Below, one piece after another: positions 4,882 to 35,177 of a stretch of DNA of 64,000 bases. The stretch covers positions 62,001 through 126,000 of the forward strand of contig NZ_UFSM01000003.1 in NCBI RefSeq assembly GCF_900445235.1, in the 5' to 3' direction. Position numbers and translations under genes: made by a program. The DNA comes from Aminobacter aminovorans (GTDB taxonomy: Bacteria; Pseudomonadota; Alphaproteobacteria; Rhizobiales; Rhizobiaceae). The notes below the pieces were generated by a model. The model was given only the letters and a program-made list of their open reading frames with translations, searched no databases and was not told the DNA's origin. Each line of letters opens with the position of its first letter. Position 1 is the first letter of the stretch.

Positions 4882-4897
4882 GTTGACAGCTGTCAAC
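4882..4897. promoter_or_regulatory. parS partition site 2 (upstream of repA)
   Basis: A second perfect copy of GTTGACAGCTGTCAAC. It overlaps the stop codon (4893-4895) of the small WGR gene. Two identical 16-mers 1.5 kb apart flanking repA support a genuine centromere-like arrangement. Confidence 0.88.
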
Positions 4898-5138
4898 CGA
4901 CAGATCTGTAGCCGCGCTGGATTTTGGAAGCCGCCAAGCGACGCAGAGCGCCCTGTGCCTGGGCAACATCGGCGAAGAGATCGAGGCGCCTCCTGCCCAG
5001 CGTACCAATGCGACCCCATTCCCTTACCAGCACCGCGTCACCGAACAGAGACCTTTCCACTGACAGGCAATAGAACCGCGCCATGTTTCGGCTCGGATCG
5101 CGACGCTGGAGATGTAGGATGAAGCTCGGCTTTTGCAT
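4893..5138 (-). CDS. Small WGR-domain protein
   Basis: 81 residues from the ATG at 5138; a GTG at 5168 in frame would give 91. Almost the whole protein is a WGR domain: FYCLSVERSLFGDAVLVREW followed by GRIGTLGRRRLDLF and a helical tail ending KIQRGYR. WGR domains occur in poly(ADP-ribose) polymerases and in short bacterial proteins and are thought to bind nucleic acid. The domain call is secure, the function is unknown. Its stop codon lies inside a parS site and the gene is next to repABC on the same strand, which invites a role in replicon maintenance, but nothing in the sequence proves this. Confidence 0.75.
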   Translation of the reverse strand: MQKPSFILHLQRRDPSRNMARFYCLSVERSLFGDAVLVREWGRIGTLGRRRLDLFADVAQAQGALRRLAASKIQRGYRSVG

Positions 5139-5232
5139 GGACGGCAGAATCGCGCGCGGCGATTCCACCGTCCAATGAAACTCCTGAATCGATCAGCCGT
5201 CGTCGATTCAGTACACTGATGGACCAGACCTG

Positions 5233-8200
5233 TCAGGCCGCCTGCCCCACTGGCGCAACCTGGGCAAAGGCGGCAAGCAGTTCCGACTTGCGCTTTTCGT
5301 AGCGCTCGACGGCCGCCAGCTTGACATGACCATAGCCGCGCACGGTTTCGGCCAAGGCGGCAAGTTCGGTTGCGGCTGACAGGTTCAAAACCGACAGGCG
5401 GACAACAAGCTCCTCGATGAGCGCGAAGTAGTCTGCGACCAACTTGCGTTCCATCTTCCGCTCGGCCGTTCGGCCGAACGGATCGAAGCGGGTGCCGCGC
5501 AGGCCCTTGAGGCGAGCCAGCACAGCAAAGACCGGTTCGATCCAGCGGCTGCCGATGGCAACCTTGGCAGGATGGCCGGTGCGCGGATCGGTGCGGGTCA
5601 ACATCGGCGGCGCAAGATTGTACTGCAGCGTGAAATCGCCCTCGAACTGCTCGGCCAGCTTTTGCCGGAAAGCCGGGTCGCGATGCAGCCGCGCCACTTC
5701 GTACTCGTCTTTGTAGGACATCAGCTTGAATGCGGCCCTGGCAACGACAGTAGCAAATGCTGTCTGCCCCGGATTGACCCTCGCCTCGGCCTGACGTGCC
5801 TTGTCGACCAGGGCACGGTAGCGTTCGGCATATCTGGCGTCCTGGTACCCGGTCAGAAACGCCACGCGTTGCCCGACAATCTCATCAAGCGACCTGGCCT
5901 CTGGCGCCGATGCTGCAACGCCCCCGGCCTGCCTGTTGACGAAATCCATGTCATCGGCCGAGCGCCGTCCCCAGGCAAAGGCGGCACGGTTCATGGCAAC
6001 GCCGGCGCCATTGAGATCGATGGCCCTTTCGATCGCCTTGCGACCGATCGGCACGAGGCCCTTCTGCCAGGCATGGCCGAGCAGGAACATGTTGGCGGCG
6101 ATCGCATCGCCGAACAGCGCGGTTGCCAGCTTGATCGCGGGCAGGGTGGCAAGCGCGCCCTCGCCACCGGCATTGCGCAGCCGCCGCAGCGTGGCGCCTT
6201 CGCGGAAGTCGATGGTGGTGTCCTTGACGAAGGAGGCGGTCGGGGCGAAGTGGTCGTCGACCACTGCACTGGTGCGGCCCTTGCCGAAGGTGGCGATGGC
6301 ATTCGGCGATGCCGCGACCACCAGATCGAAGCCGAGCACCAGATCGGCCTCGCCGGGGCCGATGCGGGCTGCATTGAGTGTCTCTGAGTGTCGCGCGAGG
6401 CGAATGTGTGAAACGACGGCGCCGTTTTTCTGGGCAAGCCCCGTCTGGTCAAGCGTCACCAGCGACAGGCCGTCGAGATGGGCTGCCTGTGACAGGATGG
6501 CGCTGACGGTGATGACGCCGGTACCGCCGATGCCGGTGAGCAGCACGCTGTAGGGCTCGTTGCCCAGCATGGGCAGGCTTGGTTCTGCCAGGCTAGCATC
6601 GACATCGCCGGCAGCCTTGGCGTGCGGCTTGCGCAGGCGCCCGCCTTCGACGGTGACGAAGCTCGGGCAAAAGCCCTTGGTGCAGCTGAGGTCCGTGTTG
6701 CAGCTCGACTGGTTGATGGCGCGCTTGCGGCCGAACTCGGTCTCGCGCGGCTCGATGGAGATGCAGTTCGAGACCGCAGAGCAATCGCCGCAGCCTTCGC
6801 AGACCAGCTCGTTGATGAAGGCCCGCTTGGGCGAGACGGGGTAGGTGCCGCGCTTGCGCCGGCGGCGCTTCTCGGCGGCGCAGACCTGATCGTAGACCAG
6901 CACCGTGACACCTTCGACCTCGCGCAGCTCTCGCTGCACCTCGTCGAGTTCATCGCGATGACGCACATTGACCGAGCGCGGCAACAGACCGGCCAGCAGC
7001 TGCGGCCGTTCGGATACGACGACGACCTGCCTGGCGCCTTCGGCGAGCACCTGGTCGACGATAGACGGCACAGACAATTCGCCGTCATGGCGCTGACCGC
7101 CGGTCATGGCGACCGCGTCATTATAGAGGATCTTGTAGGTCGCGTTGACCTTGGCGGCGATGCCGGCGCGGATGGCCAACAGGCCGGAGTGGAAATAGGT
7201 GCCGTCACCCATATTGACGAAGATGTGCTTCTCGTCGGTGAAAGGCGACAGGCCGATCCACGATCCACCTTCGCCGCCCATCTGGGTGAAGGTCGAGGTG
7301 TCGCGCTCCATGCCGATCACCATCATATGGCAGCCGATTCCGGTGGAGGCGCGGCTGCCCTTGGGCAGTACCGTCGACGTGGAATGCGGGCAGCCGGAGC
7401 AGAAGTAGGGCTCGCGGTTGAGCAGGGCTGGCTCGGCAGGGGAGGGGGCCCCAACCGTTGACAGCTGTACGGTGCGCGCGGCGAGCCCGGCATCATCTGT
7501 GCCCAGCCACTGCAGGACGGAACGCGCCACCGACAGGGCACCGATCTCGCCTATCGAGGGCAAGAGAGGAGAGCCGTCCGGCCCGGTCTTGCCGAAGACT
7601 TGCGGCCGGCGGTCAGCCGGCTGGTTGAACAGCAGCGACTTGATCTGCTCCTCGATGACCGGACGCTTTTCTTCGACGACGAGGATCTGCTCCAGCCCGT
7701 CGGCAAATTCACGCAGGCCTTCCGGCTCCAGCGGCCAAACCATGCCGACCTTGTAGAGGCGGATACCAAGCTCGGCAGCGCGGCCCTCGTCGATGCCGAG
7801 CAGTGCCAGTGCTCCCTTGAGGTCGAGCCAGGATTTGCCGGTCGACACGATGCCGAGTCGTGCAGCAGGGGAGGGCCAGACCTGACGGTCTAGGCGATTG
7901 GCACGGGCGAAGGCGAGCACCGCGGCGAGCTTGGTCTCGAGCCGGCGCTCCATCGCCTGCTGTCCGTCGGGCCAGCGCATCGACAGGCCGTCGGCGGGGA
8001 GAGGCAGCTCTGGCGTGACGATCTCCAGCCTGCTCGGATCGAGGTCGACGGTTGCCGAGCACTCGACGATCTCGGTCTGGCATTTGAAGCCGACCCAGGC
8101 ACCGGAATATCGGCTCATCGCCCAGCCAAGCAGACCGTAGTCGATATATTCACTGATGCCGGCCGGCGACACCAGCGGCACCATGGCCGAGATCAGATTG

Positions 8201-8718
8201 TGTTCGCTCTGGTGCGGTAAGGTGGACGACACCGCACCATGGTCGTCGCCGACGAGCAACAGTACGCCGCCATGCTTGCTGGTGCCGACGGCGTTGGCGT
8301 GGCGGATGACATCCATGGTGCGATCGACACCCGGGCCCTTGCCGTACCACATCGAAAAGACGCCATCATAGCGTGCACCGGGAAACATGCCGGTTTGCTG
8401 CGTGCCCCACACGGCGGTCGCCGCCATGTCCTCGTTGAGGCCGGGCTGGAAGACGATATGGCTTTCCTTGAGATATTTCCGGGCGCTGCCCATCTCGCGA
8501 TCGAAGCCGGCCAGTGGCGAACCGCGATAGCCCGAGACGTAACCTGCAGTGTTGAGGCCCGCGGCAAGGTCGCGCTGGCGCTGGACCATCGGCAGGCGCA
8601 CCAGTGCCTGCGTGCCCGAAACCAGGATGCGGCCGCGTTCGAGCGTATAGCGTTCGTCTAGCGCCGAGGGCATGTCGACCGGGCGGGCGCCATTTTCAGG
8701 AGAAGTCACAGCTGTCAT
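5233..8718 (-). CDS. Fused indolepyruvate ferredoxin oxidoreductase family protein
   Basis: 1161 residues from the ATG at 8718, nine bases after the preceding gene; the frame stays open to 8919 but that extension looks non-coding. These enzymes oxidatively decarboxylate aryl or branched 2-oxoacids to acyl-CoA using thiamine diphosphate and iron-sulfur clusters. Seen in order: an N-terminal pyruvate-oxidoreductase-like domain (GYRGSPLAGFD), a TPP-binding region (YFCSGCPHSTST, GDGTYFHSG), a cysteine-rich ferredoxin-like segment (CEGCGDCSAVSNC), and a gamma-type domain (GIGGTGVITVSAILSQAA). The fused form of about 1160 residues is typical of aerobic proteobacteria. It is second in an operon with an FAD 2-hydroxyacid dehydrogenase, so a hydroxyacid-to-oxoacid-to-acyl-CoA sequence is likely. 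The true substrate is not visible. Confidence 0.88.
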   Translation of the reverse strand: MTAVTSPENGARPVDMPSALDERYTLERGRILVSGTQALVRLPMVQRQRDLAAGLNTAGYVSGYRGSPLAGFDREMGSARKYLKESHIVFQPGLNEDMAATAVWGTQQTGMFPGARYDGVFSMWYGKGPGVDRTMDVIRHANAVGTSKHGGVLLLVGDDHGAVSSTLPHQSEHNLISAMVPLVSPAGISEYIDYGLLGWAMSRYSGAWVGFKCQTEIVECSATVDLDPSRLEIVTPELPLPADGLSMRWPDGQQAMERRLETKLAAVLAFARANRLDRQVWPSPAARLGIVSTGKSWLDLKGALALLGIDEGRAAELGIRLYKVGMVWPLEPEGLREFADGLEQILVVEEKRPVIEEQIKSLLFNQPADRRPQVFGKTGPDGSPLLPSIGEIGALSVARSVLQWLGTDDAGLAARTVQLSTVGAPSPAEPALLNREPYFCSGCPHSTSTVLPKGSRASTGIGCHMMVIGMERDTSTFTQMGGEGGSWIGLSPFTDEKHIFVNMGDGTYFHSGLLAIRAGIAAKVNATYKILYNDAVAMTGGQRHDGELSVPSIVDQVLAEGARQVVVVSERPQLLAGLLPRSVNVRHRDELDEVQRELREVEGVTVLVYDQVCAAEKRRRRKRGTYPVSPKRAFINELVCEGCGDCSAVSNCISIEPRETEFGRKRAINQSSCNTDLSCTKGFCPSFVTVEGGRLRKPHAKAAGDVDASLAEPSLPMLGNEPYSVLLTGIGGTGVITVSAILSQAAHLDGLSLVTLDQTGLAQKNGAVVSHIRLARHSETLNAARIGPGEADLVLGFDLVVAASPNAIATFGKGRTSAVVDDHFAPTASFVKDTTIDFREGATLRRLRNAGGEGALATLPAIKLATALFGDAIAANMFLLGHAWQKGLVPIGRKAIERAIDLNGAGVAMNRAAFAWGRRSADDMDFVNRQAGGVAASAPEARSLDEIVGQRVAFLTGYQDARYAERYRALVDKARQAEARVNPGQTAFATVVARAAFKLMSYKDEYEVARLHRDPAFRQKLAEQFEGDFTLQYNLAPPMLTRTDPRTGHPAKVAIGSRWIEPVFAVLARLKGLRGTRFDPFGRTAERKMERKLVADYFALIEELVVRLSVLNLSAATELAALAETVRGYGHVKLAAVERYEKRKSELLAAFAQVAPVGQAA
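7457..7472. promoter_or_regulatory. Partial parS-like match inside the oxidoreductase gene
   Basis: GTTGACAGCTGTACGG matches the first 12 bases of the two perfect parS sites exactly, then diverges, losing the AAC arm. It lies 2.6 kb from the nearest perfect site. It could be a decayed or weak RepB site, or chance within a coding region. Confidence 0.25.
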
Positions 8719-8726
8719 TGCGGCAC

Positions 8727-10130
8727 TCAGACTTTGGACAGGGCAGGGGGCATGTCGAAGATACGACCCGGATTGAGAATGTTGTTGGGGTCGAGCGCGG
8801 CCTTCAGCCGCCGCATCGCCGAAATTTCGCCCGGACTGCGCGTCAGATGCAGATAGGCCTTCTTGTCGAGGCCGATGCCATGCTCGGCCGAGATCGAGCC
8901 ACCGCTTTTCGCAACGCAATCGAACACCGCACTGGCGACATCGTCGGGCCTGTCAGTTCGGACGACGTAATGCAGGTTGCCGTCGCCGAGATGGCCGAAG
9001 ACATAGTCCTGTGCGCCCGGGTCGACCTGGCCTTGGGCCGCTCTCGCCATGTCGAGGAAGGCGCCCATCTCAGGCAGCGGCAGGCTGACATCAAGGCTGA
9101 GCATTGCCTCTTCGGCAAACAGAAAGCGGTTGACGTCGTCCCGCAGGGTCCACAGCGCACGGAACTCTCGTTCGGACTGCGAGACCACGACGTCCTCGAC
9201 CAGCCCGTGCTCGATTGCCTGCGACAGCGTTTCGACTAAGGCCTCCTCGTCGGCTTGCGGCGTCATGCCCTGGATGTCGGCCAGCACATAGACCGGCGAC
9301 GACAGGGCGACAGGCGCCGTCAAGCCGAGGGCGGCAACCATGTCGCCCATCAGCGGCGCCAGGATGACCTCGAAGCCGGACAGCAGGTTGCCGAGGCGGG
9401 CGCGCAGGAATTTGAGCAGGCCGAAGGCCGCTTCGAGTGATGGCAATGAACAGAAGGCCGCGGATTGCGTCACGGGCCTGGGGTGAAGCCTGAGGCAGGC
9501 ACGCGTGACGACGCCGAGCGTGCCTTCGCAGCCGATGAAAAGCTGGCTGAGGTCATAGCCGGAATTGTCCTTGGCGAGCCCTTTCAGCGAGGACAGCACG
9601 CTGCCGTCGGCGAGCACGGCCTCAAGCCCCAGCACCTGGGCGCGGAAACTGCCATAGCGCAAAACGCGGATGCCGCCGGCATTGGTGGCGACGTTGCCGC
9701 CAATGGTGGCGGTGCCGCGCGCACCGATGTCGACGCCGAAAACGAGATCCGCTGCATCCGCTTTTTCCTGCACGAGTTGCAACGGCACGCCGGCATCGGC
9801 GACAATGGTTGCCGCCGTCGGCTCGACCTCCTGCAAGGCGGTCATGCGCTCGAGCGACAGCACCGCCTCGCCCGCCAGCACCCTCGCCCCGCCCGAGAGT
9901 CCCGTGCGGCCGCCTTGGACGACCAGCGGCTGACACGCGTCGTTGCAGGCCTTCAGGATCTCGGCAACCTCGTCGGTGCTGCGCGGGCGCAGCACCAGTT
10001 CCGGCCGGGCGCCCGGCTCGCCGGCAAGATCGTCGCTGTAGCGTGGATCGATGGCGTCGCCAGCCAGGATCGCAGCCTTGTCGAGCCGGGCCTGGAGGAT
10101 GGACAGAACCTGATTGCTCTTGGGTGTCAT
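8727..10130 (-). CDS. FAD-linked D-2-hydroxyacid dehydrogenase (D-lactate/2-hydroxyglutarate type)
   Basis: 467 residues. Members of this vanillyl-alcohol-oxidase superfamily oxidise D-2-hydroxyacids to 2-oxoacids. The N-terminal PCMH FAD domain (about residues 40-215) shows VVQGGRTGLSGGA, GTATIGGNVATNAGGIRVLRYG and IGCEGTLGVVT. The C-terminal FAD-oxidase domain ends with the metal and substrate motifs FGHLGDGNLHY, SISAEHGIG and ALDPNNILNPGR. It is transcribed first in an operon with the indolepyruvate-type oxidoreductase (8-base gap), which would consume its 2-oxoacid product. It diverges from a FadR-type regulator across an AT-rich operator-like region. The substrate could be an aryl-lactate, lactate or 2-hydroxyglutarate. 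Confidence 0.85.
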   Translation of the reverse strand: MTPKSNQVLSILQARLDKAAILAGDAIDPRYSDDLAGEPGARPELVLRPRSTDEVAEILKACNDACQPLVVQGGRTGLSGGARVLAGEAVLSLERMTALQEVEPTAATIVADAGVPLQLVQEKADAADLVFGVDIGARGTATIGGNVATNAGGIRVLRYGSFRAQVLGLEAVLADGSVLSSLKGLAKDNSGYDLSQLFIGCEGTLGVVTRACLRLHPRPVTQSAAFCSLPSLEAAFGLLKFLRARLGNLLSGFEVILAPLMGDMVAALGLTAPVALSSPVYVLADIQGMTPQADEEALVETLSQAIEHGLVEDVVVSQSEREFRALWTLRDDVNRFLFAEEAMLSLDVSLPLPEMGAFLDMARAAQGQVDPGAQDYVFGHLGDGNLHYVVRTDRPDDVASAVFDCVAKSGGSISAEHGIGLDKKAYLHLTRSPGEISAMRRLKAALDPNNILNPGRIFDMPPALSKV

Positions 10131-23261: not shown

Positions 23262-25739
23262 TCAGTCCTGCTCGTCGTTCGTCTGCGCGTGGTCGCGGCG
23301 GCCGGCCATGATCTCGCGCTTGCCGACATGGTTGGGCGCACCGACGAGGCCTTCCTTTTCCATGCGCTCGACCAAGGAAGCGGCACGGTTGTAGCCGATA
23401 CCAAGTCGGCGCTGGATATAGGAGGTCGAGCACTTCTTGTCGCGCTGCACCACCTTGACCGCCTCGTCATAGATCGAGTCACCGTCCTCGGCGGCGACGG
23501 CCCCCTTGTCGAAGACTGGCGTGTCCTCGGCTTCCGGTACCTCGTCGTCCTCGTCGGCGGTGACCGTCTCGAGATATTCGGGACGTCCCTGCGCCTTGAG
23601 ATGGGTGACGACGTGCTCGACCTCTGCGTCCGAAACAAACGGACCGTGGACACGGGAGATGCGGCCGCCGCCGGCCATGTGCAGCATGTCGCCCTGGCCG
23701 AGCAGTTGTTCGGCGCCTTGCTCACCCAGAATGGTGCGGCTGTCGATCTTCGACGTCACCTGGAACGAGATGCGGGTCGGGAAATTGGCCTTGATCGTGC
23801 CGGTGATGACGTCGACCGACGGGCGCTGCGTTGCCATGATCAGGTGGATGCCGGCGGCACGCGCCATCTGCGCAAGGCGCTGGATAGCACCCTCGATCTC
23901 CTTGCCGGCGACCATCATCAGGTCGGCCATCTCGTCGACGATGACGACGATGTAGGGCATCGGCGCGAGGTCGATCTCCTGCTCCTCGAAAAGCGGCACG
24001 CCGGTGCCTTTCTCGAAGCCGGTCTGCACCTGCATCACCACCGTCTCGCCCTTGTCGCGGGCAATCGCGGCGCGTTCGTTGTAGCCGTCGATATTGCGCA
24101 CGCCGAGCCGCGCCATCTTGCGGTAGCGGTCTTCCATCTCGCGCACCGCCCATTTGAGTGCGGTGACCGCCTTCTTCGGATCGGTGACGACGGGGGTCAG
24201 AAGATGCGGGATGCCGTCATAGATCGAAAGCTCGAGCATCTTCGGATCGACCATGATCAGGCGGCACTCTTCCGGCTTCAGCCTGTAGAGCAAGGACAGG
24301 ATCATGGTGTTGATGGCGACCGACTTGCCCGAGCCGGTGGTGCCGGCGACGAGCAAATGCGGCATCTTGGCGAGTTCGGCGATGACCGGTTCACCGCCGA
24401 TGGTCTTGCCCAGGCAGAGAGCCAGCTTGCAGGCAGTATTGCGGAAGCCGTCCGACTCGATCAGCTCGCGGAAATAGACCGTCTCGCGCGTCTCGTTGGG
24501 CAGCTCGATGCCAATGACGTTGCGGCCGGGGATAACGGCGACACGCGCCGAAATCGCCGACATCGAACGAGCGATGTCGTCGGCAAGGCCAATGACACGC
24601 GAGGATTTGACGCCCGGCGCCGGCTCGAATTCGTAGAGCGTCACGACAGGGCCCGGGCGAACATGGATGATCTCGCCGCGCACGCCGAAATCCTCAAGCA
24701 CGCTTTCCAGGAGGTCGGCATTCTGTTCCAGTCGCTCCTGCGACATGTAGAACCCCTGGCCTGCCGGCGGCAGCTGCAACAGCTCCTCGGAGGGCAATTC
24801 GTAGGCATCGCCAGTGGTCGCAGGCACGATCCTGCCCATCAGGGGCAAGGGCGACACCGGACGCGCAGGGGTCATTGGCTCGACGACACTGGCTGGCTCG
24901 GGCGCCGCTCCGACCGCTGGGGCCGGATGATGCAGCCCGGCAGTCGCAGCAACTTCAAGTTTCGCTTCGTTGGAGTTGGCGGGCGCGGCTGGCGCCGCGT
25001 TTACCTGATGCGGCGGAATGCACTCGATGACCCGGAACAGCGCCGTAATTTCTGCCGCCGGAATCTCGGCCTGCCTGGCGACGACGGGTGCCGCCGGCGC
25101 AACGCGGACCGCGACAGGCGCGGGGCGGGCGGCAACCACCGCGGCTGCCGGCGAAGGACCGTCCGAGGTGTTTGGCGCCATCAACTCAAAAAATGCATGG
25201 TCTGAAAGATAGGACCACCGGGCCTTCTTTGGCTGGGCCGCTGGAGCCTCACTGACACCTGCTGGCTTGGTTGCCGACTGTGCCGGCGGGGAGACGGGCG
25301 GCATGGCTGCTACGGCTTGCGTCAGGGGCGAGGCCGCCTGCTGGGCCGGCGCGGCGATCCTGCTGGCGATTTGCGCCTGCAAGGCCTCCACGACCTGGGC
25401 TCCCGTCGTCACGGTAACCGGCCGGGACGGAACACGATCGATGACGGGCGCGGCGGCTACCGCATGCTCGTTCACCTGCGGCTGAACCGCCGCGACATTC
25501 GTCTGGGCTTCATGATGGGCGGCTTCCGCCGCTTCGTATGCCTGGCGCTTCGCGGCGTCATAATCGGGCGTGCGGGTGAAGCGCACATTGGGCGCCAGGT
25601 AGAAATAATCCTGCCAGCCGGGGCCATCGGCCGGCGAGGGCACATGTGTCCGGTCACCCTTGCTCTCCGCACGATCCGGGCGGTCATCATGCGAGGCTTG
25701 GTTCGAAAAATTCACTCGAGGCAAACGCGTGCTTCCCAT
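23262..25739 (-). CDS. FtsK/SpoIIIE-type DNA translocase lacking the N-terminal membrane domain
   Basis: About 825 residues from the ATG at 25739; the frame is open to 25853. FtsK pumps DNA and activates XerCD recombination at dif. The motor is complete: Walker [15 protein letters not shown] (near residue 466), the FtsK signature [20 protein letters not shown], Walker [15 protein letters not shown], and [12 protein letters not shown]. The C-terminal gamma winged helix ([24 protein letters not shown]) is present. The N-terminal 330 residues are Ala/Pro/Glu-rich linker with no membrane segments, unlike the four-helix anchor of canonical FtsK. It is probably a second, soluble copy. Confidence 0.88.
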
Positions 25740-25988
25740 ACTCAAGACTCGCTGATGAAACGTCCCCCGAGCAATAGGAAGCGAGTGGTTAACAGTTCCT
25801 TCCAGCTTTCTGCTTTGTGATCCGGAAGGGCCAATTCGCAACACCGGAACCAAGTCATTCTGCGTTTGTTAGACGAGTGTACGACTACAGCCGACACCAA
25901 CGGATGATTGTGGAGTTCGCACGCCGGGTGTTTGCAAGCCCTTGTTCCGCTGTGCTAACTTTACGTCATGCGGTAAGGAGATGCGGAC

Positions 25989-27752
25989 TTGTACCGCTTT
26001 TGGAATTGGTTTGCGTATCCGAAGGCTGGGGGCAAAAGAGGCGGAGGGCCCAGGCCCTCGAACCTCTCCATGGACCGCGATGCCCGCCTTGCAAGCTTCC
26101 TCGCAAACACCACCGATCTTGTTTCATTCTATGACCACGATTTCCGGCTGACCGACTGCTCGGTCAGGCTGAAGAGCATTCGCGGAAATGCCATGACCGC
26201 AGGTGCCATGGCCTGGGAGATTTACCCAAACTTTGGCGAGAACGAGCTTCGCGCAGCAATGCAGCTTGCTGCGCGCGATGGTTCATCGACGCAAATCAAG
26301 CTCAAGGCGCTGTCAGGTCAGCCAACGGGAGCGATCTTTTGCTTTGGAATGGCTGATGGCGTCGGCATCATCGAGACTGCTGAAACTGCGCAGGACGGCC
26401 GCGCGGCCACCGAGGAAGCGGATCGCGTGAAGTTGCTGCAGCATCAGGCGACGCACGACGCGCTGACCGGATTGCAGAACCGCCGCCGCTTCAGCGAGCG
26501 CCTGGACGAGGTCCTGGCGGAAAGCGGCGATTCCCGGGACAAGTCGGCCCTGCTGCAGATCGACCTCGACGATTTCAAATCGGTCAATGACACGCTTGGC
26601 CACGGCACCGGCGACACCTTGCTGCAGCTTGCAGCAAACAGGATCCGCGGCGCGCTGCAGGACGGCGACGCTGCCTACAGATACGCCGGCGACGAGTTCG
26701 CGGTCATCCAGGCGGGCAAGCAACAGCCCATGGCGGCCGAACGGCTGGCGCAGGCGATTGTCGATGCCTTCAAGGCGCCCTTCGTCATCAACGACATACC
26801 GCTTTTCGTCGGCGCCAGCGTCGGCATTGCTTTCGGCCCCCAGCACGGGGTCGAGAGCGAAGAACTGATGAAAGCGGCCGACATCGCCCTTTACGCGGCC
26901 AAGCGCGACGGCCGCGGCTGCGCACGCACGTTCAACCGCTCGATGATGCTGCTGCTGGAGCAGCGGGAGAATCTGCGGCGAAGCCTGCGCATGGCCCTGG
27001 AGCGACAGGAGCTCTACCTTGAATACCAGCCGCTCATTCGCCCGCCATCGACAGTGATCGGCTTCGAGGCGCTGCTGAGATGGCATCATCCCGAGGTTGG
27101 CCTCATTCCGCCGAACGTGTTCATACCGATTGCCGAAGCCGACGGCTTGATGGACGACATCGGCCGCTGGGTGCTCGAGGAAGCCTGCCGACAGGCAATG
27201 ACCTGGCCACCCTCGCTGAACGTCGCGGTAAACCTGTCACCGGCGCAGTTCCTGAGCGGCTCGCTCACCGACACCGTGGCCCAGATCATCGACAAGGTCG
27301 GCATCCGCGCCGACCGCGTCGAGCTCGAGATCACCGAAACGGTGCTTCTGGAGCAGACAGTCGACAATCTCGACACGCTTAATACGCTCAATGTCCTGGG
27401 CATCCGGATTTCGCTCGACGACTTCGGCACGCACTACTCGTCGCTGAGCTATCTCAAGAATTTCCCCTTCGATACGCTGAAGATCGACCAGTATTTCATC
27501 AAGGACCTGGTTGCCGACCGCAAGAGCCAGGCGATCGTCCGATCCGTCATGAGCCTGGCACACGGCCTGGGCATCAGCGTCACCGCGGAGGGGGTCGAAA
27601 CAGCCGGCCAGGCAAACTGGCTGATCGAAGAGGGCTGTGATTGCTTGCAGGGCAACTTCCTTGGGCGACCGATGGGGGCGGACGCGACGGGTGAGTTTGC
27701 GGACCGCCCGCTGGCGGAAGAAAAAGCGCCGCAAGCACAAGATCGATCATGA
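25989..27752 (+). CDS. GGDEF-EAL protein (c-di-GMP cyclase/phosphodiesterase)
   Basis: 587 residues from a TTG at 25989, eight bases after AAGGAG; an ATG at 25981 is in another frame. An N-terminal PAS-like region (about 25-130) precedes a GGDEF domain (about 150-310) with HDALTGLQNRRRF and a variant AGDEF site starting at residue 233. The EAL domain (about 330-575) has EAL at 360-362 in EALLRWHHPE, ITETVLLE, DDFGTHYSSLSYLK and GVETAGQ, so it looks catalytically competent. AGDEF sites are active in some proteins. No membrane segment is evident. It leads the colinear signalling cluster running to 32889. Confidence 0.9.
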   Translation: MYRFWNWFAYPKAGGKRGGGPRPSNLSMDRDARLASFLANTTDLVSFYDHDFRLTDCSVRLKSIRGNAMTAGAMAWEIYPNFGENELRAAMQLAARDGSSTQIKLKALSGQPTGAIFCFGMADGVGIIETAETAQDGRAATEEADRVKLLQHQATHDALTGLQNRRRFSERLDEVLAESGDSRDKSALLQIDLDDFKSVNDTLGHGTGDTLLQLAANRIRGALQDGDAAYRYAGDEFAVIQAGKQQPMAAERLAQAIVDAFKAPFVINDIPLFVGASVGIAFGPQHGVESEELMKAADIALYAAKRDGRGCARTFNRSMMLLLEQRENLRRSLRMALERQELYLEYQPLIRPPSTVIGFEALLRWHHPEVGLIPPNVFIPIAEADGLMDDIGRWVLEEACRQAMTWPPSLNVAVNLSPAQFLSGSLTDTVAQIIDKVGIRADRVELEITETVLLEQTVDNLDTLNTLNVLGIRISLDDFGTHYSSLSYLKNFPFDTLKIDQYFIKDLVADRKSQAIVRSVMSLAHGLGISVTAEGVETAGQANWLIEEGCDCLQGNFLGRPMGADATGEFADRPLAEEKAPQAQDRS

Positions 27753-27900
27753 CGTCAGGCAACACCCTGCAAGCTTGCCTCGACGGGGCAAGCGAACAAG
27801 GCCATACATACGGATAGTGTCAGGGCCGACCGACTTCCGGCCGGACACCTCAAACAAGCCGCGCGGCGCTGCTGCTCGGCCAGAACGGCAAGAGGGTGAC

Positions 27901-28416
27901 ATGCCTACCAAAGATGCGAATGCGGAACCAAGTTTTCGCACAATGATCCAGGTCGACATGGAGATCGCATCTTTCCTTTCGAATTGGGCGCATTGCGACT
28001 ACATTTCGAGTTATCTGGCGCGTACGATCAGCCATAACAGGCCCGACTCCGTTCTGTTTTCAAATCTCTTTTCATCCGCATTGAATGAATTGCTGGAGGT
28101 CACTTTCAGGACACGCCACTCTGGGGGAGCGCTCGAATGCAGGCTGTCTCGCCTCGGCGAGACCGACCGGATCGAGTTGACGTTTGCCTGCAGCCGGGAA
28201 GAGCACGCCTTCCTGGAGTCTGCGGTTGCGCGGGTCCAGGGAGCCGATCGGCAGGCGCGCTACCTGAGCTCGCTTTCAGGCGATGTCGCACCCAGCCGCG
28301 ACATGATGCTTCTCGAACTGACCGTCAACTACAACGCCACGCTTCGGCTTGAAGAGGTTGATGCCGATACGGTCACGATCGTCGTCGACCTTCCGCTCGG
28401 GGGCCTGGCAAATTGA
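27901..28416 (+). CDS. GHKL-like regulatory protein with degenerate ATP site
   Basis: 171 residues from the ATG at 27901. It resembles the 185-residue protein at 31974-32531 in size and order of motifs. The N-box-like sequence SSALNELLEVTFRTRHSGG (about residues 60-80) recalls the NEL-x-EN motif of GHKL ATPases, but no GxGLG lid is visible, where the sequence instead reads PSRDMMLLELTVNYN. It may therefore bind a partner without phosphorylating it. Its stop overlaps the TTG start of the STAS-methyltransferase gene, so the two are coupled. Function is inferred from the cluster. Confidence 0.55.
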   Translation: MPTKDANAEPSFRTMIQVDMEIASFLSNWAHCDYISSYLARTISHNRPDSVLFSNLFSSALNELLEVTFRTRHSGGALECRLSRLGETDRIELTFACSREEHAFLESAVARVQGADRQARYLSSLSGDVAPSRDMMLLELTVNYNATLRLEEVDADTVTIVVDLPLGGLAN

Positions 28417-29603
28417 CTGCACACCCGGCCCCATCCAGCATCTCAGGGCGCTTCAAGGCGCATTTTGACCTGAACAACCAGGAATTTTCGATTGCCGGCT
28501 CGGTGCGCCCGCAAACGATCGACGAGCTTGCGCCGAGCCTGGCGCTGCTGAAGGAGTCGATCGAAAGCGTCCGCGGCGTGCTTTACATCAACGTCAGACG
28601 CCTCGCGCAGATGAACAACACTGCGTTTCATGCCTTTTCCCGTGTCATCATCGACGCATGCCGGGTCAGGCCGGACCTGAGGTTCATCGTTATCACCTCA
28701 AGCGTCGTCGGGTGGACGACACGCAAGTTCGGTCGGCTCAGCAAGATCGAGCCCGGCATCACCGTCGAGGAATATGACAGCGAGTTCTATCCCGGGCAGA
28801 GCTTCCTCGAAGAGGGTGGGTTCATCCCCATCCTGCGCACCCAGACCAAGATGACCTGGCGGCACGAGCGCTCGATCCTGCCGCGCCACGGCATGCGTCC
28901 GGGCATCGTCATGGCCGATATCTGCTGCGGCATCGGCGATTTCGCCGTGCTGGTCCAGAAGGAGTTCGAGCCGTCGCGGATCGTCGCCCTCGATCACTCC
29001 AAATCGAGCCTGGCCTATGCGAGGAACGTCGCCAGCGAGTTCGCCATCACAGGCATAGAGTATACCTATGGCGACGCCTCCGAGATGCTGCTCGATGACG
29101 ACCAGTTCGATCTCGTCACCTGCCGGCACTCGCTGCAGATCTTCAATCGTCCGGCGCAGATCCTCAAGGAGCTGTTCCGGATCTGCAAACCGGGAGGCCG
29201 GGTCTACATCACCAATGAGAAGAACTCTCATTGTCTGGGTGAGCCACGCGCCGAAAGCATCCGCTGGACCTACAACGAGGTGGCAAAGCTGTTCGAACAC
29301 TTCGACATGGATGTCGAGCTCGGCCCCAAAAGCCGGCGCTACCTGGCCGATGCCGGCTTTGACGACATCCGCGTCGAACAGTTCATGGTGACCAATCTCG
29401 ACGGCGACCCAAAGGACTTTGCCGACATGATCGCGGCATGGGAAGAGGTCTATGCCGGTGACATGGCGGTCAAGCGCGGCGATTCCGGCGAGTTCATCAA
29501 GCAGTTCAGGCAAGGTTTCAAGGATCACATCTCGGCTGCCCTCCACCCGAAGGGATACGCAGGCTGGCCCATCTGGGCTGCCTCGGGGCAGAAGCCGCTA
29601 TGA
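28413..29603 (+). CDS. STAS-like domain fused to a SAM-dependent methyltransferase
   Basis: 396 residues from a TTG that overlaps the previous stop (TTGA). Residues about 15-120 form a STAS-like domain colinear with the stand-alone STAS protein at 32551: YINVRRLAQMNNTAF aligns with [14 protein letters not shown]. At the usual phosphorylation position the serine is replaced by Asn69, with Thr70 next to it. Residues about 150-390 are a class I methyltransferase: motif I MADICCGIGDFAVLV, an acidic post-II region IVALDHSKSSLAYAR, and FDLVTCRHSLQIFNRPAQILKELFRICKPGGRVYI split across two motifs. The C-terminal half is UbiE-like. The methyl acceptor is unknown. The stop overlaps the phosphatase start (ATGA). 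Confidence 0.75.
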   Translation: MTAHPAPSSISGRFKAHFDLNNQEFSIAGSVRPQTIDELAPSLALLKESIESVRGVLYINVRRLAQMNNTAFHAFSRVIIDACRVRPDLRFIVITSSVVGWTTRKFGRLSKIEPGITVEEYDSEFYPGQSFLEEGGFIPILRTQTKMTWRHERSILPRHGMRPGIVMADICCGIGDFAVLVQKEFEPSRIVALDHSKSSLAYARNVASEFAITGIEYTYGDASEMLLDDDQFDLVTCRHSLQIFNRPAQILKELFRICKPGGRVYITNEKNSHCLGEPRAESIRWTYNEVAKLFEHFDMDVELGPKSRRYLADAGFDDIRVEQFMVTNLDGDPKDFADMIAAWEEVYAGDMAVKRGDSGEFIKQFRQGFKDHISAALHPKGYAGWPIWAASGQKPL

Positions 29604-31969
29604 GCACGGATATGCAGGACACCCCACGTTTCGGACTGCATTCCTTCCGCGCGAAGTTCGTGCTGGTTGTGGGCGGAGCCGTCCTGTTCGACCTTTTGAT
29701 GAGCGGTGGCCTGGCGCTGTGGAACGTGCAGCGGCTGTCGAAAGACGCAACCTCCGAGGTTGGCGCTGGCCTGACGACGGCAAACCAGGAGTATATCCGC
29801 TCCTATGCCGAGTCGACGGCGTCGCGGGTCGACCTGTTGCTCGACCGGGTCCATGCCGACGTCAAGACACTGGCCGGCGTGATTCAAGGTCAGATCGACG
29901 ACCCCGACCGACAAAAACAGGTCGGCGCCACGCTGGCGAACCAGGCAGCGGCCTCTGTTCAGGTGGTCTACGACACCAAGGGACAGTGGGCGCAGAACCT
30001 GCCCGGCGCACCGTCCGTGGTCAGTGTCTGGGGCTATCTGCTTGGCCCCGACCACAAGCCGCTGCCGGCCGTCCAGGAAGAGATCGAAAACAGCGCGGTG
30101 CTTGACCTCGTCGCACCGAGCCTGCTGACCAGCGGTTCGTCAAAGCTGCAGATGTATTACATCGGCCCGAAGGAGCGGCCAATCTTCAGGACGGCGCCCT
30201 ATACGGACCAGGCCCAGACTTTCGATCGCCTCTATCCCGGCCATAACAGTTCGGAGTTCTGGGAGTTCTTCTTCCCCGGCATCTATGGCTCGTGGCAGCA
30301 ATGGGCACGCGATCCGGCGTCGCGTTTCATCCCGGACAACGACATCACCCAGACCGCCCCCTACACCGACGCGATTACCGGCAAGCTGATCGTCAGCTTC
30401 TTCCATCCGCTATGGACGCGCGACCGCACGGGCGTCGCAGGTGCCGCCGGCGCCGATATCACCCTCGACCAGCTCGCCGAGATCGTCGAGAACGTCAAGA
30501 TCGCCGATACAGGATTCGGCTTCCTGACGATGCCGAACGGCAACGTGGTGGCCATCAATGCGAAGAGCGAAGCGACGATCGGCCTGGTTTCTTCGAATCA
30601 AAAGGGTACGGACGGGGTCACCGGCCTCGAACGCTCGCTGCGCTCCAGCACCCAGCCGGCCATCGCGACGCTCGACCTCAACAGCGGCAATGACGGCGTC
30701 ATCCAGCATGTCCTGCTGCAGGAGGACGGCGAAAACGTTCCCTACATCGTCGTCCTCAAGGGGCTGAAGCCAACCAATCTCTGGAGCACCGGCCCCATCG
30801 AAAAACAGGCGATGTCGGTTGGCATCGTCGTGCCCGAGCGCGAGATCTATGCTGCCTTGTTTGCGGCGCAGGACAGCATTTCGAAGGCGACGAACCGGAT
30901 CCTGCTCTATCAGCTCCTGGCTATCATCGTTTCGCTGATGATCGTTTTTGCCGCGGTGTTTGGCCTGTCCAAGCGCATCACGGCAGGTCTGAGTGCACTT
31001 GCTGCTGGTGCCCGCCGGCTCCAGGCAAAAGACTATTCCGTCCGCGTCAACATCCCGTCCAAGGACGAGGTCGGCGAGGTCGGCGTGGCTTTCAACCGCA
31101 TGGCCGAGCAGATCAGCTTCCACACCGAGAACCTTGAACAGCTGGTCGATGAACGCACCAGGGATCTCGAAGACGCCAACGTCGAAATCTCTTCGCTCAA
31201 CGAAAAGCTGCGCAGCGAAAACGTGCGATTGGGCGCCGAACTCGATGTCGCGCGCCAGATACAGATGATGGTGCTGCCCAAGCCGCGCGAACTGGCGCTG
31301 ATCCCGGGCATCGAGATCGCCGCCTACATGCGGCCGGCAGATGAAGTCGGCGGCGACTATTACGATGTCCTGCAGGATGGGCATCGCCTCAAGATCGGCA
31401 TTGGCGACGTCACCGGACACGGCCTTGAAAGCGGCGTGCTGATGCTGATGGTGCAATCAGTCGCGCGCGCGCTCCAGGAGACTGGCGAAGACAATCCCCG
31501 GCAGTTCCTCGACCGGCTGAACCGCGCCATCTTCAAGAACCTGGAGCGCACCAATTCCGACAAGCACCTGTCGCTCGCGTTCCTTGACTATGAAGACGAG
31601 CGTCTCGTTCTGTCAGGCCAGCATGAAGAGGTTCTGGTTGTCCGCGCCGGGGGTAACGTCGAACGGATCGACACGCTCGACCTTGGCCTGCCGGTCGGTC
31701 TCGAGCGCGACATCTCGCCTTTCGTCGCGACCCGCAACATCCCGTTCAGCAGCGGCGACGTCATCGTGCTTCACACCGACGGCGTGACGGAGGCGGAAGG
31801 ATCAGGCGGCAAGCTGTTTGGTCTCGACCGGCTCAGCGAAAGCGCACGGTCGCGCTATGGCGGCAGCGCCGAAGAGATCAAGACGGGAATTGTCGACGAC
31901 CTGATGGCATATATCGGCACACGGAAGATACACGACGATATTACACTCGTCGTCATGAGGCACAGGTGA
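29600..31969 (+). CDS. Membrane SpoIIE/PP2C phosphatase with extracytoplasmic sensor and HAMP domain
   Basis: 789 residues. A first membrane helix (about 14-36, FVLVVGGAVLFDLLMSGGLAL) and a second (about 432-455, LLAIIVSLMIVFAAVFG) flank a large dCache-like sensor. A HAMP segment and coiled coil follow, then a SpoIIE/PP2C domain (about 560-789) with the metal-binding aspartates in DEVGGDYYDV, GDVTGHG, LHTDGVTEAEG and HDDITLVV. This is the SiaA/RsbU architecture: an external signal controls dephosphorylation of a STAS antagonist. Two GHKL-like genes and two STAS domains lie in the same operon, four bases separating it from the next gene. Confidence 0.88.
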   Translation: MSTDMQDTPRFGLHSFRAKFVLVVGGAVLFDLLMSGGLALWNVQRLSKDATSEVGAGLTTANQEYIRSYAESTASRVDLLLDRVHADVKTLAGVIQGQIDDPDRQKQVGATLANQAAASVQVVYDTKGQWAQNLPGAPSVVSVWGYLLGPDHKPLPAVQEEIENSAVLDLVAPSLLTSGSSKLQMYYIGPKERPIFRTAPYTDQAQTFDRLYPGHNSSEFWEFFFPGIYGSWQQWARDPASRFIPDNDITQTAPYTDAITGKLIVSFFHPLWTRDRTGVAGAAGADITLDQLAEIVENVKIADTGFGFLTMPNGNVVAINAKSEATIGLVSSNQKGTDGVTGLERSLRSSTQPAIATLDLNSGNDGVIQHVLLQEDGENVPYIVVLKGLKPTNLWSTGPIEKQAMSVGIVVPEREIYAALFAAQDSISKATNRILLYQLLAIIVSLMIVFAAVFGLSKRITAGLSALAAGARRLQAKDYSVRVNIPSKDEVGEVGVAFNRMAEQISFHTENLEQLVDERTRDLEDANVEISSLNEKLRSENVRLGAELDVARQIQMMVLPKPRELALIPGIEIAAYMRPADEVGGDYYDVLQDGHRLKIGIGDVTGHGLESGVLMLMVQSVARALQETGEDNPRQFLDRLNRAIFKNLERTNSDKHLSLAFLDYEDERLVLSGQHEEVLVVRAGGNVERIDTLDLGLPVGLERDISPFVATRNIPFSSGDVIVLHTDGVTEAEGSGGKLFGLDRLSESARSRYGGSAEEIKTGIVDDLMAYIGTRKIHDDITLVVMRHR

Positions 31970-31973
31970 GCAC

Positions 31974-32531
31974 ATGACAACTATGTATGGACCGGCCGAC
32001 ATTGCGATGGGCATGCGCGACAACATCAGCCGCGTCAGATTGTTTGACGGGCCGTTGGACCTGAAATGGCACCACTGCGCAACGACTTCGGACTTCATCG
32101 CCGATCTTTTCGCGCTGCCCTTCCACGCGTCACGAAACGACTACAAGGAAGTGCGCCACAGCATCGGATACCTGGTCAACGAGCTGATCGAGAACGCGGT
32201 GAAGTTTCGTGAGCCGGGCGAGATCATCGTCGAAGCATCGATGGATTCCGATAATTTCAAGGTGAAGGTTTCGAACATCGTTGCCGACAAGACCGCGGTG
32301 ACGTTTCAGAAGCTTCTCTCCCAGATTACCATAGGCGATCCGGGCGACCTGTTGATCCAGCAGATCGAGGCAAATGCCGCCGATCCCGATGCTACGGGCT
32401 CAGGGCTTGGATTGCTGACGTTGATGAGCGACTATGGCGCCCGACTGGCATGGATCTTCAGCCCGGTTGAATCCAGCAACCGGGTTCACGTCGAAACCTA
32501 CGCCACGATCCCGATCTCGCAGGCTCACTAA
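31974..32531 (+). CDS. GHKL-type ATP-binding regulator (slr1658-like; candidate STAS kinase)
   Basis: 185 residues. The N-box [14 protein letters not shown] (about residues 62-76) and a lid sequence [16 protein letters not shown] (about 139-154) mark a histidine-kinase-like ATPase fold related to anti-sigma-factor kinases and the slr1658-type regulators. Unlike the protein at 27901, both ATP-site motifs are present. In partner-switch systems such a protein phosphorylates the STAS protein and the PP2C enzyme reverses it. It is 4 bases behind the phosphatase gene and 19 before the STAS gene. Confidence 0.7.
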
Positions 32532-32550
32532 GGAAAGAACGAAGGCGCCC

Positions 32551-32889
32551 ATGGAAGTAAGAACCGATGACTATCGCGTCTGGACCGAAAACAGCGATGT
32601 CTATTTCGATGGCTCCATGCGGCTTTCCGGCTCGGAAGCTTACGCGCCGGTACTGGCGGTGATGACGGCAATTCTCGCCGAAAAGCCTGAAACCATGACG
32701 CTCAACCTGACCGACCTCGAGTTTCTCAACTCATCCGGTATCAACCTTCTGGCAAAGTTTACCATCGAGGTGCGCAAGCACCCCGACGTGCAGCTCATCG
32801 TGCGCGGCAGTTCCGAGATACCCTGGCAGTCCAAGTCGCTGCCAAATCTGAAAAAGCTGCATCCGGCGCTGGTCCTGCAGATCGACTGA
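32551..32889 (+). CDS. STAS-like antagonist protein (slr1659-like)
   Basis: 112 residues from the ATG at 32551. The core [21 protein letters not shown] matches the SpoIIAA-type switch helix; Ser61 in NSSG occupies the position usually phosphorylated. It is the last gene of the cluster and is followed by a strong terminator. It should be the substrate of the GHKL protein at 31974 and the PP2C enzyme at 29600. Its downstream partner, possibly the GGDEF-EAL protein or the methyltransferase, cannot be read from the sequence. Confidence 0.75.
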
Positions 32890-32928: not shown

Positions 32929-32964
32929 AAAAAAGCCGCGGCATCGATGCCGCGGCTTTCTTTT
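32929..32964. terminator. Bidirectional rho-independent terminator
   Basis: AAAGCCGCGGCAT and ATGCCGCGGCTTT (32932-32944 and 32947-32959) form a 13-bp perfect stem with A/T tracts on both sides. It separates the signalling cluster from the convergent esterase gene. Confidence 0.9.
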
Positions 32965-32981
32965 CAAGACACGCCATCCGC

Positions 32982-35177
32982 TCAGTTGATGGCTGCGATG
33001 TTGCCCAGGCGGATGAACAGCGTTTCACCCGAGGAATCGTCGACGCCATCATTGTCGGTGACGACGAAGGCTTCGCCTGACGCATCGATGGCAAAGCCCT
33101 CGACCTTGTCGACGACGTAGCCGTTGGTGGCCGCCTTGAGATCGGGCACGAGATCCCGCACCAGGATCTTTGCCACCACCGGCAGCTCGCCGCCCAGCTT
33201 GACCGGCTTGAAGCCATCGAGCGCCACCGAATAAAGGCGCTTGTTGACGGCATCCTGACCGACCAGGTTGTCTCGTTCGACGACGAAGAGCTTGCCGTCA
33301 TGGGCAGTGATTTCCGACAGGCCGACCCAGCCCTTGTCGGTCGCATCAAGAGCATAGCGTACCGCCGACCATTCCTTGTCCTTGGGCTTGTAGGCAAGAA
33401 GCTTGACCTGGCCCTTGGGATCGTCGGCCCATTCACGCTGGATTGCCATGACCAGAGTGAGGTCGTCGCCTTCGCCGACCGTGGTGATGCCCTCCAGGCC
33501 GAAACGGGTCTCATGCGCCAGCAGCTCCGCCGGGAACGCGATCTCGTCCTTGATCTCGCCCTTGGCGTTAACGTTGAAAATGGCGTGCGGGGTCAGCTTG
33601 TCGGTGCGGCCTTCGGAGGCGAGCCAGAAGCCACCCTTGCCGTCGGGTGCCAGGCCTTCGAGATCGAGCTTCTGCGCCGGCTTGCCATCACGTGTGACGA
33701 TGGTCTTTGCGGTGATCAGGGCAGGGGTCTTGGTGGTGTCGAGGGTGAAGATCGCCGGCGCCGAGCGGTAGACCGAGTCCGACACCGCATAAAGCTTCCC
33801 GGCTTCCTTGGGATCGGCGGCGAGGCCCGAGAGAGCGCCCCAGCCGAGCGGCGTGCCGTCGTCATTGGAAGCTGCCACGATCTGCGGATAGACGGCTGCA
33901 CCTTCGCCGAGTTCATAGACCATGACATGCGAACGGGCGAGGCCGTCCTCGACGAGGTCCGTCTCGTTGGCGGTGACCAGCAGGTTGCGCTGCGGGATGG
34001 CAACGAGGCCCTCCGGTCCGATACCCGAGGGCAGGAGCTGGACGAATTCAGGCTCCTTGCCGGTGTCCTTGTAGACGCCGATCAGCGACGCGCGTTCGGC
34101 GGCAACGAAGATGTATTTCTGATCGCCGAACTGGGCGAACTCCAGGCCTTCCGGCTCGATGCCCTTCTTGTTGCGGGCATCGGGATAGTGGCCGGCGGCG
34201 GCCGCCTGGTATTCGAAGGCGGGTCCGGACTCGTAGAGCACTTCGCCTGATTTGGAGAAGATGGTGAAGCCGCGCGCACCGCCCTTGTAGTCGCCTTCAT
34301 TGGCAACGACGAGACGATCATTGTCGAGCCATTTCACCGCATCGGGTTCGCGAGGTGCGTTCTCGACCTTGCCGGTGAAGCTGAGCGCGCCGTCCTTCTT
34401 GGTGTCGACGTTCTCGAGTGTCACGTCACCAGCCGAAAAATGCGCGACGATCTTCCCCGAGGCGGCTTCGACGATGGCGATGTGGTTGTTTTCCTGCAGC
34501 GTGACGGCGATCTCGCCGGCTTCGTTGAAGGCGACGAACTCCGGCTCCGGATCTTCCGGCGAAACCGCTGCGATGCCGGTCAGGTCGACCGTCCTGATCG
34601 AAGCGCAGTCCACCCAACCGTCCTTAAGAGACACGATCTTGAGGTTGCCGGCGGGCAGTTGCGGCAGGGCGCCTTCGTTCAGCTCTTCGTCGCGCTCGTT
34701 TTCGATGGCAATGGCGAGGAACTTTCCATCCTTGCTCAGCGCCACGGAGTCGGGCTGGCCGCCGAGATCGCAGGAGGCCTCGATCGCCTTGGAGGCGAGG
34801 TCGATGATGGTCAGATTGCCCGAGGGCTCTTGCTTGTTCTTCGAGGTGTTGACGCCGGCGAAGACCTTGCCGCCCAGCACCGTGACGGAGGTCGGCTCGC
34901 CTTCGATCTTGACGATGCCGGCGGCCTTCGGTGCCTTGGCGTCGGTGATGTCGATGAAGCCGACTGCGCCGAGCGGGCTGTCGGAATAGACCAGCGTCAT
35001 GCCATCTTCGGACGCGGCGATGATTTCAGACGACGTCAGGGTTGCGGCGTCTACGCCAGCCGGCAGATTGGTCGCGACCGGAAAGGTGGCGATCCGGTTG
35101 AAAGCCTGGTCGGCATAAGCAGGGAAGACTGCGGACGCCGCCAGCGCGGACGTCAAAAGCAGGAGCTTGCGTGACAT
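32982..35177 (-). CDS. Secreted esterase-like/phytase-family beta-propeller protein
   Basis: 731 residues with a Sec signal peptide (LLLLTSALAASAVFPAYA, cleaved after AYA). The N-terminal half (about 25-400) is a repeat-rich propeller of the kind found in choice-of-anchor-I/LVIVD proteins (FIDITDAKAPKAAGIVKIEG, NLTIIDLASKAI). The C-terminal half (about 405-725) resembles the 'esterase-like activity of phytase' family (GWGALSGLAADPKEAGKLYA, DLEGLAPDGKGGFWLASEGR, RFGLEGITT, VDKVEGFAID). It probably hydrolyses phosphoesters in the periplasm. A triple Pho box lies about 63 bases upstream of the start, strong support for phosphate-starvation control. Catalytic activity itself is inferred. Confidence 0.82.
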   Translation of the reverse strand: MSRKLLLLTSALAASAVFPAYADQAFNRIATFPVATNLPAGVDAATLTSSEIIAASEDGMTLVYSDSPLGAVGFIDITDAKAPKAAGIVKIEGEPTSVTVLGGKVFAGVNTSKNKQEPSGNLTIIDLASKAIEASCDLGGQPDSVALSKDGKFLAIAIENERDEELNEGALPQLPAGNLKIVSLKDGWVDCASIRTVDLTGIAAVSPEDPEPEFVAFNEAGEIAVTLQENNHIAIVEAASGKIVAHFSAGDVTLENVDTKKDGALSFTGKVENAPREPDAVKWLDNDRLVVANEGDYKGGARGFTIFSKSGEVLYESGPAFEYQAAAAGHYPDARNKKGIEPEGLEFAQFGDQKYIFVAAERASLIGVYKDTGKEPEFVQLLPSGIGPEGLVAIPQRNLLVTANETDLVEDGLARSHVMVYELGEGAAVYPQIVAASNDDGTPLGWGALSGLAADPKEAGKLYAVSDSVYRSAPAIFTLDTTKTPALITAKTIVTRDGKPAQKLDLEGLAPDGKGGFWLASEGRTDKLTPHAIFNVNAKGEIKDEIAFPAELLAHETRFGLEGITTVGEGDDLTLVMAIQREWADDPKGQVKLLAYKPKDKEWSAVRYALDATDKGWVGLSEITAHDGKLFVVERDNLVGQDAVNKRLYSVALDGFKPVKLGGELPVVAKILVRDLVPDLKAATNGYVVDKVEGFAIDASGEAFVVTDNDGVDDSSGETLFIRLGNIAAIN

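Follow-up and report, generated by a model that had tools for sequence, protein, structure and literature searches.

We analyzed a 64,000-nucleotide stretch of Aminobacter aminovorans DNA (contig NZ_UFSM01000003.1, positions 62,001 to 126,000; hereafter the window), which contains six collinear plus-strand open reading frames (ORFs), g1 to g6, at positions 25989-32889. ORF analysis and domain searches confirmed the gene content listed in a preliminary description of this DNA: a GGDEF-EAL protein (g1), two GHKL-like proteins (g2 and g5), a STAS domain fused to a methyltransferase (g3), a membrane PP2C phosphatase (g4) and a stand-alone STAS protein (g6). The partner-switch logic proposed there was borne out, and a methyltransferase indeed belongs to the set, in g3. 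That description set the genes apart from SiaABCD by a second GHKL-like protein and a methyltransferase; we read the set not as a new combination but as a putative orthologue of the published BgrRSTUWV system of Sinorhizobium meliloti.

On pSymB of S. meliloti 1021 (L089) these six genes occur in identical order, and the window proteins g1 to g6 are 59, 48, 78, 73, 62 and 63% identical, respectively, to their pSymB counterparts. We take the pSymB locus to be the bgr operon on the strength of the gene types named in citing passages, rather than of a locus-tag match. The operon, bgrRSTUWV, was reportedly described by Baena and coworkers in 2019 (10.1111/1462-2920.14624) as having six genes, the first being SMb20447, and is said to have been noted also in some non-producers. 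In passages of two articles citing Baena et al. 2019 (PMC8457831, PMC7647112), BgrRSTUWV is a S. meliloti partner-switching system that controls the diguanylate cyclase BgrR: BgrR is governed by the STAS protein BgrV, whose phosphorylation depends on the phosphatase BgrU and the kinase BgrW. In S. meliloti the system is also coupled to BgsA, the synthase of mixed-linkage beta-glucan. The diguanylate cyclase, PP2C, kinase and STAS roles match g1, g4, g5 and g6. Since gene types and order both match, we assign g1 to g6 to bgrR, bgrS, bgrT, bgrU, bgrW and bgrV, and the window cluster, as we read it, would be the orthologue of this system (Table 1).

Table 1. Coordinates of the putative bgr locus in the window
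Feature	Position	Strand	Description
g1, bgrR orthologue	25989..27752	+	PAS-like N-terminus, GGDEF (AGDEF), EAL; 587 amino acids (aa) from TTG 25989
g2, bgrS orthologue	27901..28416	+	SiaB/SpoIIAB-fold protein without kinase motifs, 171 aa
g3, bgrT orthologue	28413..29603	+	STAS (about residues 14-122) and UbiE-like S-adenosylmethionine (SAM) methyltransferase (about 140-396), TTG start
g3 STAS phosphosite region, Asn-Asn-Thr-Ala, residues 68-71	28614..28625	+	Stands where g6 has Asn-Ser-Ser-Gly; register from hhalign
g3 SAM-binding motif I, DICCGIGD, residues 169-176	28917..28940	+	
g4, bgrU orthologue	29600..31969	+	Membrane dCache-HAMP-PP2C (SpoIIE) phosphatase, 789 aa
g5, bgrW orthologue	31974..32531	+	slr1658-superfamily GHKL kinase with N-box and G2 box SGLGL
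g6, bgrV orthologue	32551..32889	+	Stand-alone STAS protein, phosphosite region NSSG
Terminator-like hairpin with U-rich tail, 3' of g6	~32932-32965	+	-22.8 kcal/mol, z -3.21 (folding)

The predicted active switch and its cyclase

The SpoIIE-type PP2C domain of g4, which follows a dCache domain (30 bits, under the Pfam cut-off of 45) and a HAMP domain, keeps its metal-binding Asp residues wherever the alignment covers them. The kinase g5 passes the NCBIfam slr1658 superfamily model NF047703 (184 bits against a cut-off of 100), with the N-box residue N74 present in 100 of 100 loci and GLGL in 97 of 100. Likewise, g6 passes the slr1659 superfamily model NF047705 (145.5 bits, cut-off 100), and its NSSG phosphosite region was found in 100 of 100 loci. 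The two proteins thereby resemble the slr1658/slr1659 pair. Judged by its catalytic residues and phosphosite, the g4/g5/g6 switch is predicted to be intact.

Both domains of g1 were detected by Pfam (GGDEF, PF00990, E 2e-43; EAL, PF00563, E 8e-72); its PAS-like N-terminus was seen by eye and had no Pfam detection. The diguanylate cyclase consensus motif is present in all 97 aligned g1 copies, and 96-97 of them have the catalytic residues of the EAL domain; five loci are counted twice in this alignment.

The SpoIIAB/SpoIIAA/SpoIIE and RsbW/RsbV/RsbU systems switch sigma factors, whereas the six window genes include no sigma factor and the proposed targets are enzymes. A GGDEF-slr1658-slr1659-PP2C locus was also seen outside the window's family but within its phylum (L134 in genome G626, positions 4488-9140); the kinase encoded there scores 253 bits with the cyanobacterial slr1658 model, above the cut-off of 200. 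Like the window cluster, this locus pairs the same kinase and STAS protein with a PP2C phosphatase and a diguanylate cyclase. It differs in including a gene for a periplasmic binding protein and in having yielded no g2 or g3 relative.

g2 and g3 appear to be a decayed kinase and a STAS-tethered methyltransferase

Searches with g2 gave no Pfam match, and NF047703 matched it weakly (40 bits, under the cut-off). In a fold comparison g2 was closest to SiaB. The N-box Asn is absent from 101 of 101 distinct copies, and GxGLG/GLGL occurs in none of them. Thus, g2 fails membership of the slr1658-superfamily kinases despite the common fold: the second GHKL-like protein of the preliminary description is present and shares the fold, but it has lost the ATP-site motifs in every copy. 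With less certainty than for g1, g4, g5 and g6, we read g2 as having the fold of an anti-sigma kinase and expect it to lack kinase function. Sequence searches of the PDB with the g2 and g5 alignments returned insignificant matches (best E 1.3 and 0.19, respectively), and only comparing the fold of g2 was informative. Some g2 orthologues (P0123, P0127, L090) are publicly annotated as "ubiquinone biosynthesis methyltransferase UbiE", which is a propagated misannotation, since no methyltransferase domain was detected in g2 and the protein folds like SiaB.

The STAS domain of g3 scores 36 bits with the slr1659-type model NF047705, under the cut-off, and lacks NSSG; it is related to g6 by hhalign (96.7%, E 4e-10). 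Among the 101 distinct copies, residue 69 is Asn in 96, Ser in three and Met in two, and residue 70 is Thr in 59, Ala in 31, Val in four, Ile in four, Leu in two and Met in one. In the methyltransferase domain, D169, G173 and G175 as well as D194 of motif II are invariant in 101 of 101 copies. It is UbiE-like (E 2e-17; Pfam Ubie_methyltran, 62.7 bits against a cut-off of 20.1) and passes other general methyltransferase models too, but fails the UbiE/MenG quinone methyltransferase models (64 of 216 bits for NF001244, 62 of 158 for TIGR01934). The nearest structures are 3mgg (of unknown function), UbiG, GtmA, LahSB and phosphoethanolamine methyltransferases; these matches are too spread to name one substrate, and we rejected them as a means of doing so. 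By fold class the substrate is probably a small molecule.

In six distant copies the g3 methyltransferase is 69-79% identical to that of the window and the g3 STAS domain 39-54%; in three nearer copies the values are 81-86% and 68-81%. The methyltransferase is constrained more strongly than the STAS domain to which it is fused.

No text on the function of BgrS or BgrT was found among the matches listed for the literature on the switch, on slr1658/slr1659 and on STAS domains with methyltransferases, which does not imply absence in print, and term look-ups found no mention of bgr in PMC9495663, PMC7902896 or the STAS review PMC8256260. The window appears to hold a further member of a known system whose g2/g3 half is apparently unexplored in the texts searched.

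The cluster is conserved in two exclusive arrangements

The preliminary description had made its proposal depend on linkage of these genes in other genomes, and such linkage is indeed conserved. A scan of species genomes gave 231 confirmed g3 relatives, of which the best 80 named loci were kept. In 79 of these 80, g1 to g6 were complete, in the same order and co-directional; the clustering is therefore not due to chance. One of the 79 (L040) has g4 divided between two ORFs that overlap. The lone exception (L064) has its g1 relative on the opposite strand; this locus is one of two cluster copies, with L051, in a single Ensifer aridi strain and is the copy without a co-directional g1.

In an even draw of 199 genomes from the window's own family, g3 was present in 22, and slr1658 proteins over the cut-off occurred in exactly those 22. 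In a draw from the phylum, 7 of 398 genomes had such a protein, six of the seven belonging to the same family, and none of 14 controls did. At the level of the class, 4 of 385 genomes matched g3 at E 1e-20, namely that of the window and three from a single further genus, all four with approximately full-length matches that included the STAS domain. For the copies of the other genus, the nearest named protein relative comes from a Rhodospirillales metagenome-assembled genome (P0244). Stand-alone relatives of the g3 methyltransferase were not found among the at most four candidates scored per genome in the 385 class genomes at this threshold.

There are two ARRANGEMENTS, mutually exclusive, among the 22 family genomes: 15 are g1-type, including the window, 7 are c7-type, and none has both. 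In the g1-type the GGDEF-EAL gene g1 precedes g2. In the c7-type, g1 is replaced by a divergently transcribed gene for a cytosolic SpoIIE phosphatase, c7 (about 300-350 aa; PF07228 where scanned). Five of the seven family c7-type loci have g2 to g6 in one piece; in G515 the genes lie over two contigs, and in G473 g4 is truncated by the end of its contig. The c7-type also holds for the three genomes from the further genus. No g1 relative was found in the fetched stretches of 5.5-20 kb around these 10 c7-type loci, two of which are cut by contig ends. That c7 might have lost its active site was considered and rejected, the metal-site Asp residues being present in the aligned copies, seven of the 10.

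A tree of 101 distinct g3 sequences (duplicates and loci with g3 under 350 aa dropped) splits the two forms by one branch (one change; Shimodaira-Hasegawa-like approximate likelihood ratio test, 100; 92 against 9 rows; unrooted), with L064 placed in the g1 form by label only. A co-directional g1 accompanies 91 of the 101 loci with distinct g3. The c7-type lineage carries the methyltransferase module with no GGDEF-EAL gene beside it, so that the two outputs would seem to be separable.

Two further genes were seen near c7-type clusters. One encodes a cyclic-nucleotide-binding PP2C protein beside the divergent c7 and an AAA/Clp-type ATPase (L097:13556-14896); the other, just past the cluster on the other strand, encodes a separate methyltransferase with a MethyTransf_Reg domain (L092:14761-16719).

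BgsA accompanies a subset of the g1-type loci

In S. meliloti, BgsA is a downstream target of the Bgr system and not part of the operon. We called a pSymB ORF (L144:23651-25642) BgsA because the published residue positions are present in it (R599, RTGD 605-608, H615, Y633, G635 and R656). Close relatives of this protein (67-86% identity) occur in 8 of the 199 family genomes; at E 1e-60 matches were obtained in 68 of 199, all those beyond the close eight at 42% identity or less. All eight BgsA genomes carry the bgr locus (8/22 against 0/177; Fisher p 6e-9) and all are of the g1 form (8/15 against 0/7; one-sided p 0.02), both values being uncorrected for kinship. The window's own genome has no BgsA match at E 1e-60. 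Its BgrR branch, which would act through cyclic di-GMP (c-di-GMP), therefore probably serves something other than mixed-linkage beta-glucan.

A proposed second output and its alternatives

We consider it likely that the cluster is an Aminobacter-type bgrRSTUWV orthologue in which BgrU, BgrW and BgrV switch BgrR, while BgrS holds the STAS domain of BgrT and methylation is a second output. An extracytoplasmic ligand of the g4 dCache domain would change the PP2C activity of g4, and the balance between g6 and phosphorylated g6 would set the activity of the GGDEF-EAL protein g1. Less certainly, g2 and g3 would form a second, decayed slr1658/slr1659 pair. In this pair, g2 probably holds the g3 STAS domain by plain binding, which would silence or localize the fused methyltransferase, and the phosphorylation state of g5/g6 probably shifts the binding of g2 to g3 by competition, making methylation a second and, we infer, more widely shared output. 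More tentatively, and with somewhat less than even confidence, this may amount to two nested switches, the BgrU/W/V switch on BgrR and a binding-only BgrS/BgrT switch: the stand-alone STAS protein or the kinase would compete for BgrS or for the BgrT STAS domain and so toggle the SAM methyltransferase. The methyltransferase would then be the output common to the family, and c-di-GMP a lineage-specific branch missing in the sister lineage with the divergent PP2C.

Pairwise protein distances were compared between the genes by partial correlation, using 88 loci of the g1-type (L040, L041, L046, L064 and L134 dropped) and a thinned set of 36 loci. For g2 and the g3 STAS domain the value was 0.49 (5-95% interval 0.03-0.59), and 0.60 in the thinned set (0.24-0.72), as compared with -0.15 (thinned, 0.08) for g2 and g6. 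The values for g1/g6, g1/g5 and g4 PP2C/g6 were 0.53, 0.49 and 0.35, respectively. The g1-g6 and g4-g6 pairings agree with the published relations of BgrV to BgrR and of BgrU to BgrV, whereas that of g2 with g3 is a prediction.

Several observations weigh against the proposed roles. The correlation evidence that g2 pairs with the g3 STAS domain is weak, with some wide intervals, and is suggestive only. The g4 PP2C/g6 value drops to 0.17 (-0.04 to 0.34) in the thinned set, and the known kinase-substrate pair g5/g6 reaches only 0.02, or 0.33 over 100 loci that include the c7-type. The g3 STAS domain also correlates with g5 (0.39; thinned, 0.35), the adjacent genes g1 and g2 give 0.29, and the value of 0.62 between the g3 methyltransferase and the g4 sensor is unexplained; a stretch was possibly exchanged by recombination. 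In g2, E63, which aligns with the presumed catalytic base Glu, is kept in 101 of 101 copies, so this protein may have some nucleotide function. In g3, residue 70 is Thr in the window as in the majority of copies, and g3 could therefore be phosphorylatable in some species. Finally, the letters S and T were given to g2 and g3 by gene order alone, and any roles that Baena et al. 2019 may give to BgrS or BgrT could differ from ours.

Some of these points are what one would expect if the g3 STAS domain were an additional substrate or a decoy of the kinase g5 (BgrW), with g2 serving as an assembly factor only. The correlation with g5 and the Thr at the phosphosite speak for this explanation. However, the phosphosite is Ala, Val, Ile, Leu or Met in 42 of the 101 copies, including all nine distinct c7-type copies, and g2 with the g3 STAS domain is the stronger pair, in the thinned set as well; we find this explanation rather unlikely. 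About equally doubtful is that BgrS and BgrT play an accessory regulatory part inside the c-di-GMP branch, with BgrT acting upstream of BgrR or on it, either as a scaffold or through methylation of a Bgr protein; the sole output would then be c-di-GMP. The leading, co-directional position of g1 before g2 to g6 in nine tenths of the distinct loci, the naming of BgrR as the controlled target in the citing passages and the occurrence of BgsA with g1-type loci only would all fit such an arrangement, but g2 to g6 persist in the 10 c7-type loci, whose fetched stretches yielded no g1 relative, and conservation is higher in the methyltransferase than in the STAS domain fused to it.

The preliminary description had likened the set to the SiaABCD switch of Pseudomonas. 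The working principle of SiaABCD in Pseudomonas aeruginosa is similar to that of the window cluster, the g2 fold is most like SiaB, and the part of g4 beginning at residue 433 aligns with the SiaA model. Membership of that system with extra genes is nevertheless very improbable, and we rejected it: every Sia model lies far below its curated cut-off in the window (SiaA, 143 of 700 bits; SiaB-family, 23 of 85; SiaD, 108 of 290; Pfam SiaC, 12.6 of 24.5). Moreover, the STAS protein of SiaABCD is of the DUF1987/SiaC kind, in contrast to the slr1659 kind of the window, and where that system has SiaD the window has a GGDEF-EAL protein; a pseudokinase and a STAS-methyltransferase are additional. Since the cluster matches the published Bgr system, it is a known one, and the comparison with Sia stands as a likeness of mechanism.

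If the proposed BgrS/BgrT interaction is correct, a methyltransferase would here be controlled by a partner switch that works purely by binding. The STAS-tethered methyltransferase and its pseudokinase partner are kept in both locus arrangements, which suggests that c-di-GMP for glucan synthesis, so far the accepted output, may be just one branch. The sister loci without BgrR would provide a natural experiment separating the two outputs. As this anonymous cluster is tied to a system studied in a model legume symbiont, the predictions are testable there.

Gene boundaries and neighbors

The start of g2 is most likely ATG 27901 (171 aa) rather than the ORF start at 27637, and that of g6 most likely ATG 32551 (112 aa). 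For g1 the start may be either TTG 25989, which has AAGGAG upstream and gives the 587-aa product, or ATG 26070 (560 aa). A 148-bp gap separates g1 from g2; g2/g3 and g3/g4 each overlap by 4 bp, and gaps of 4 and 19 bp follow g4 and g5, respectively. A scan for consensus promoters and terminators found nothing beyond what shuffled sequences gave, and the hairpin after g6 is absent from its list.

To the left of the cluster lies a minus-strand gene for an FtsK-type DNA translocase (23262-25853), and to the right a convergent phytase-like gene (32982-35177). In Aminobacter sp. NyZ550, where the cluster lies on a plasmid of 578 kb, an FtsK-type translocase is likewise annotated beside it. The window g3 is 98% identical to the Aminobacter ciceronei copy (L009), and in the six Aminobacter plasmid records found, the cluster is carried by plasmids of 519-578 kb.

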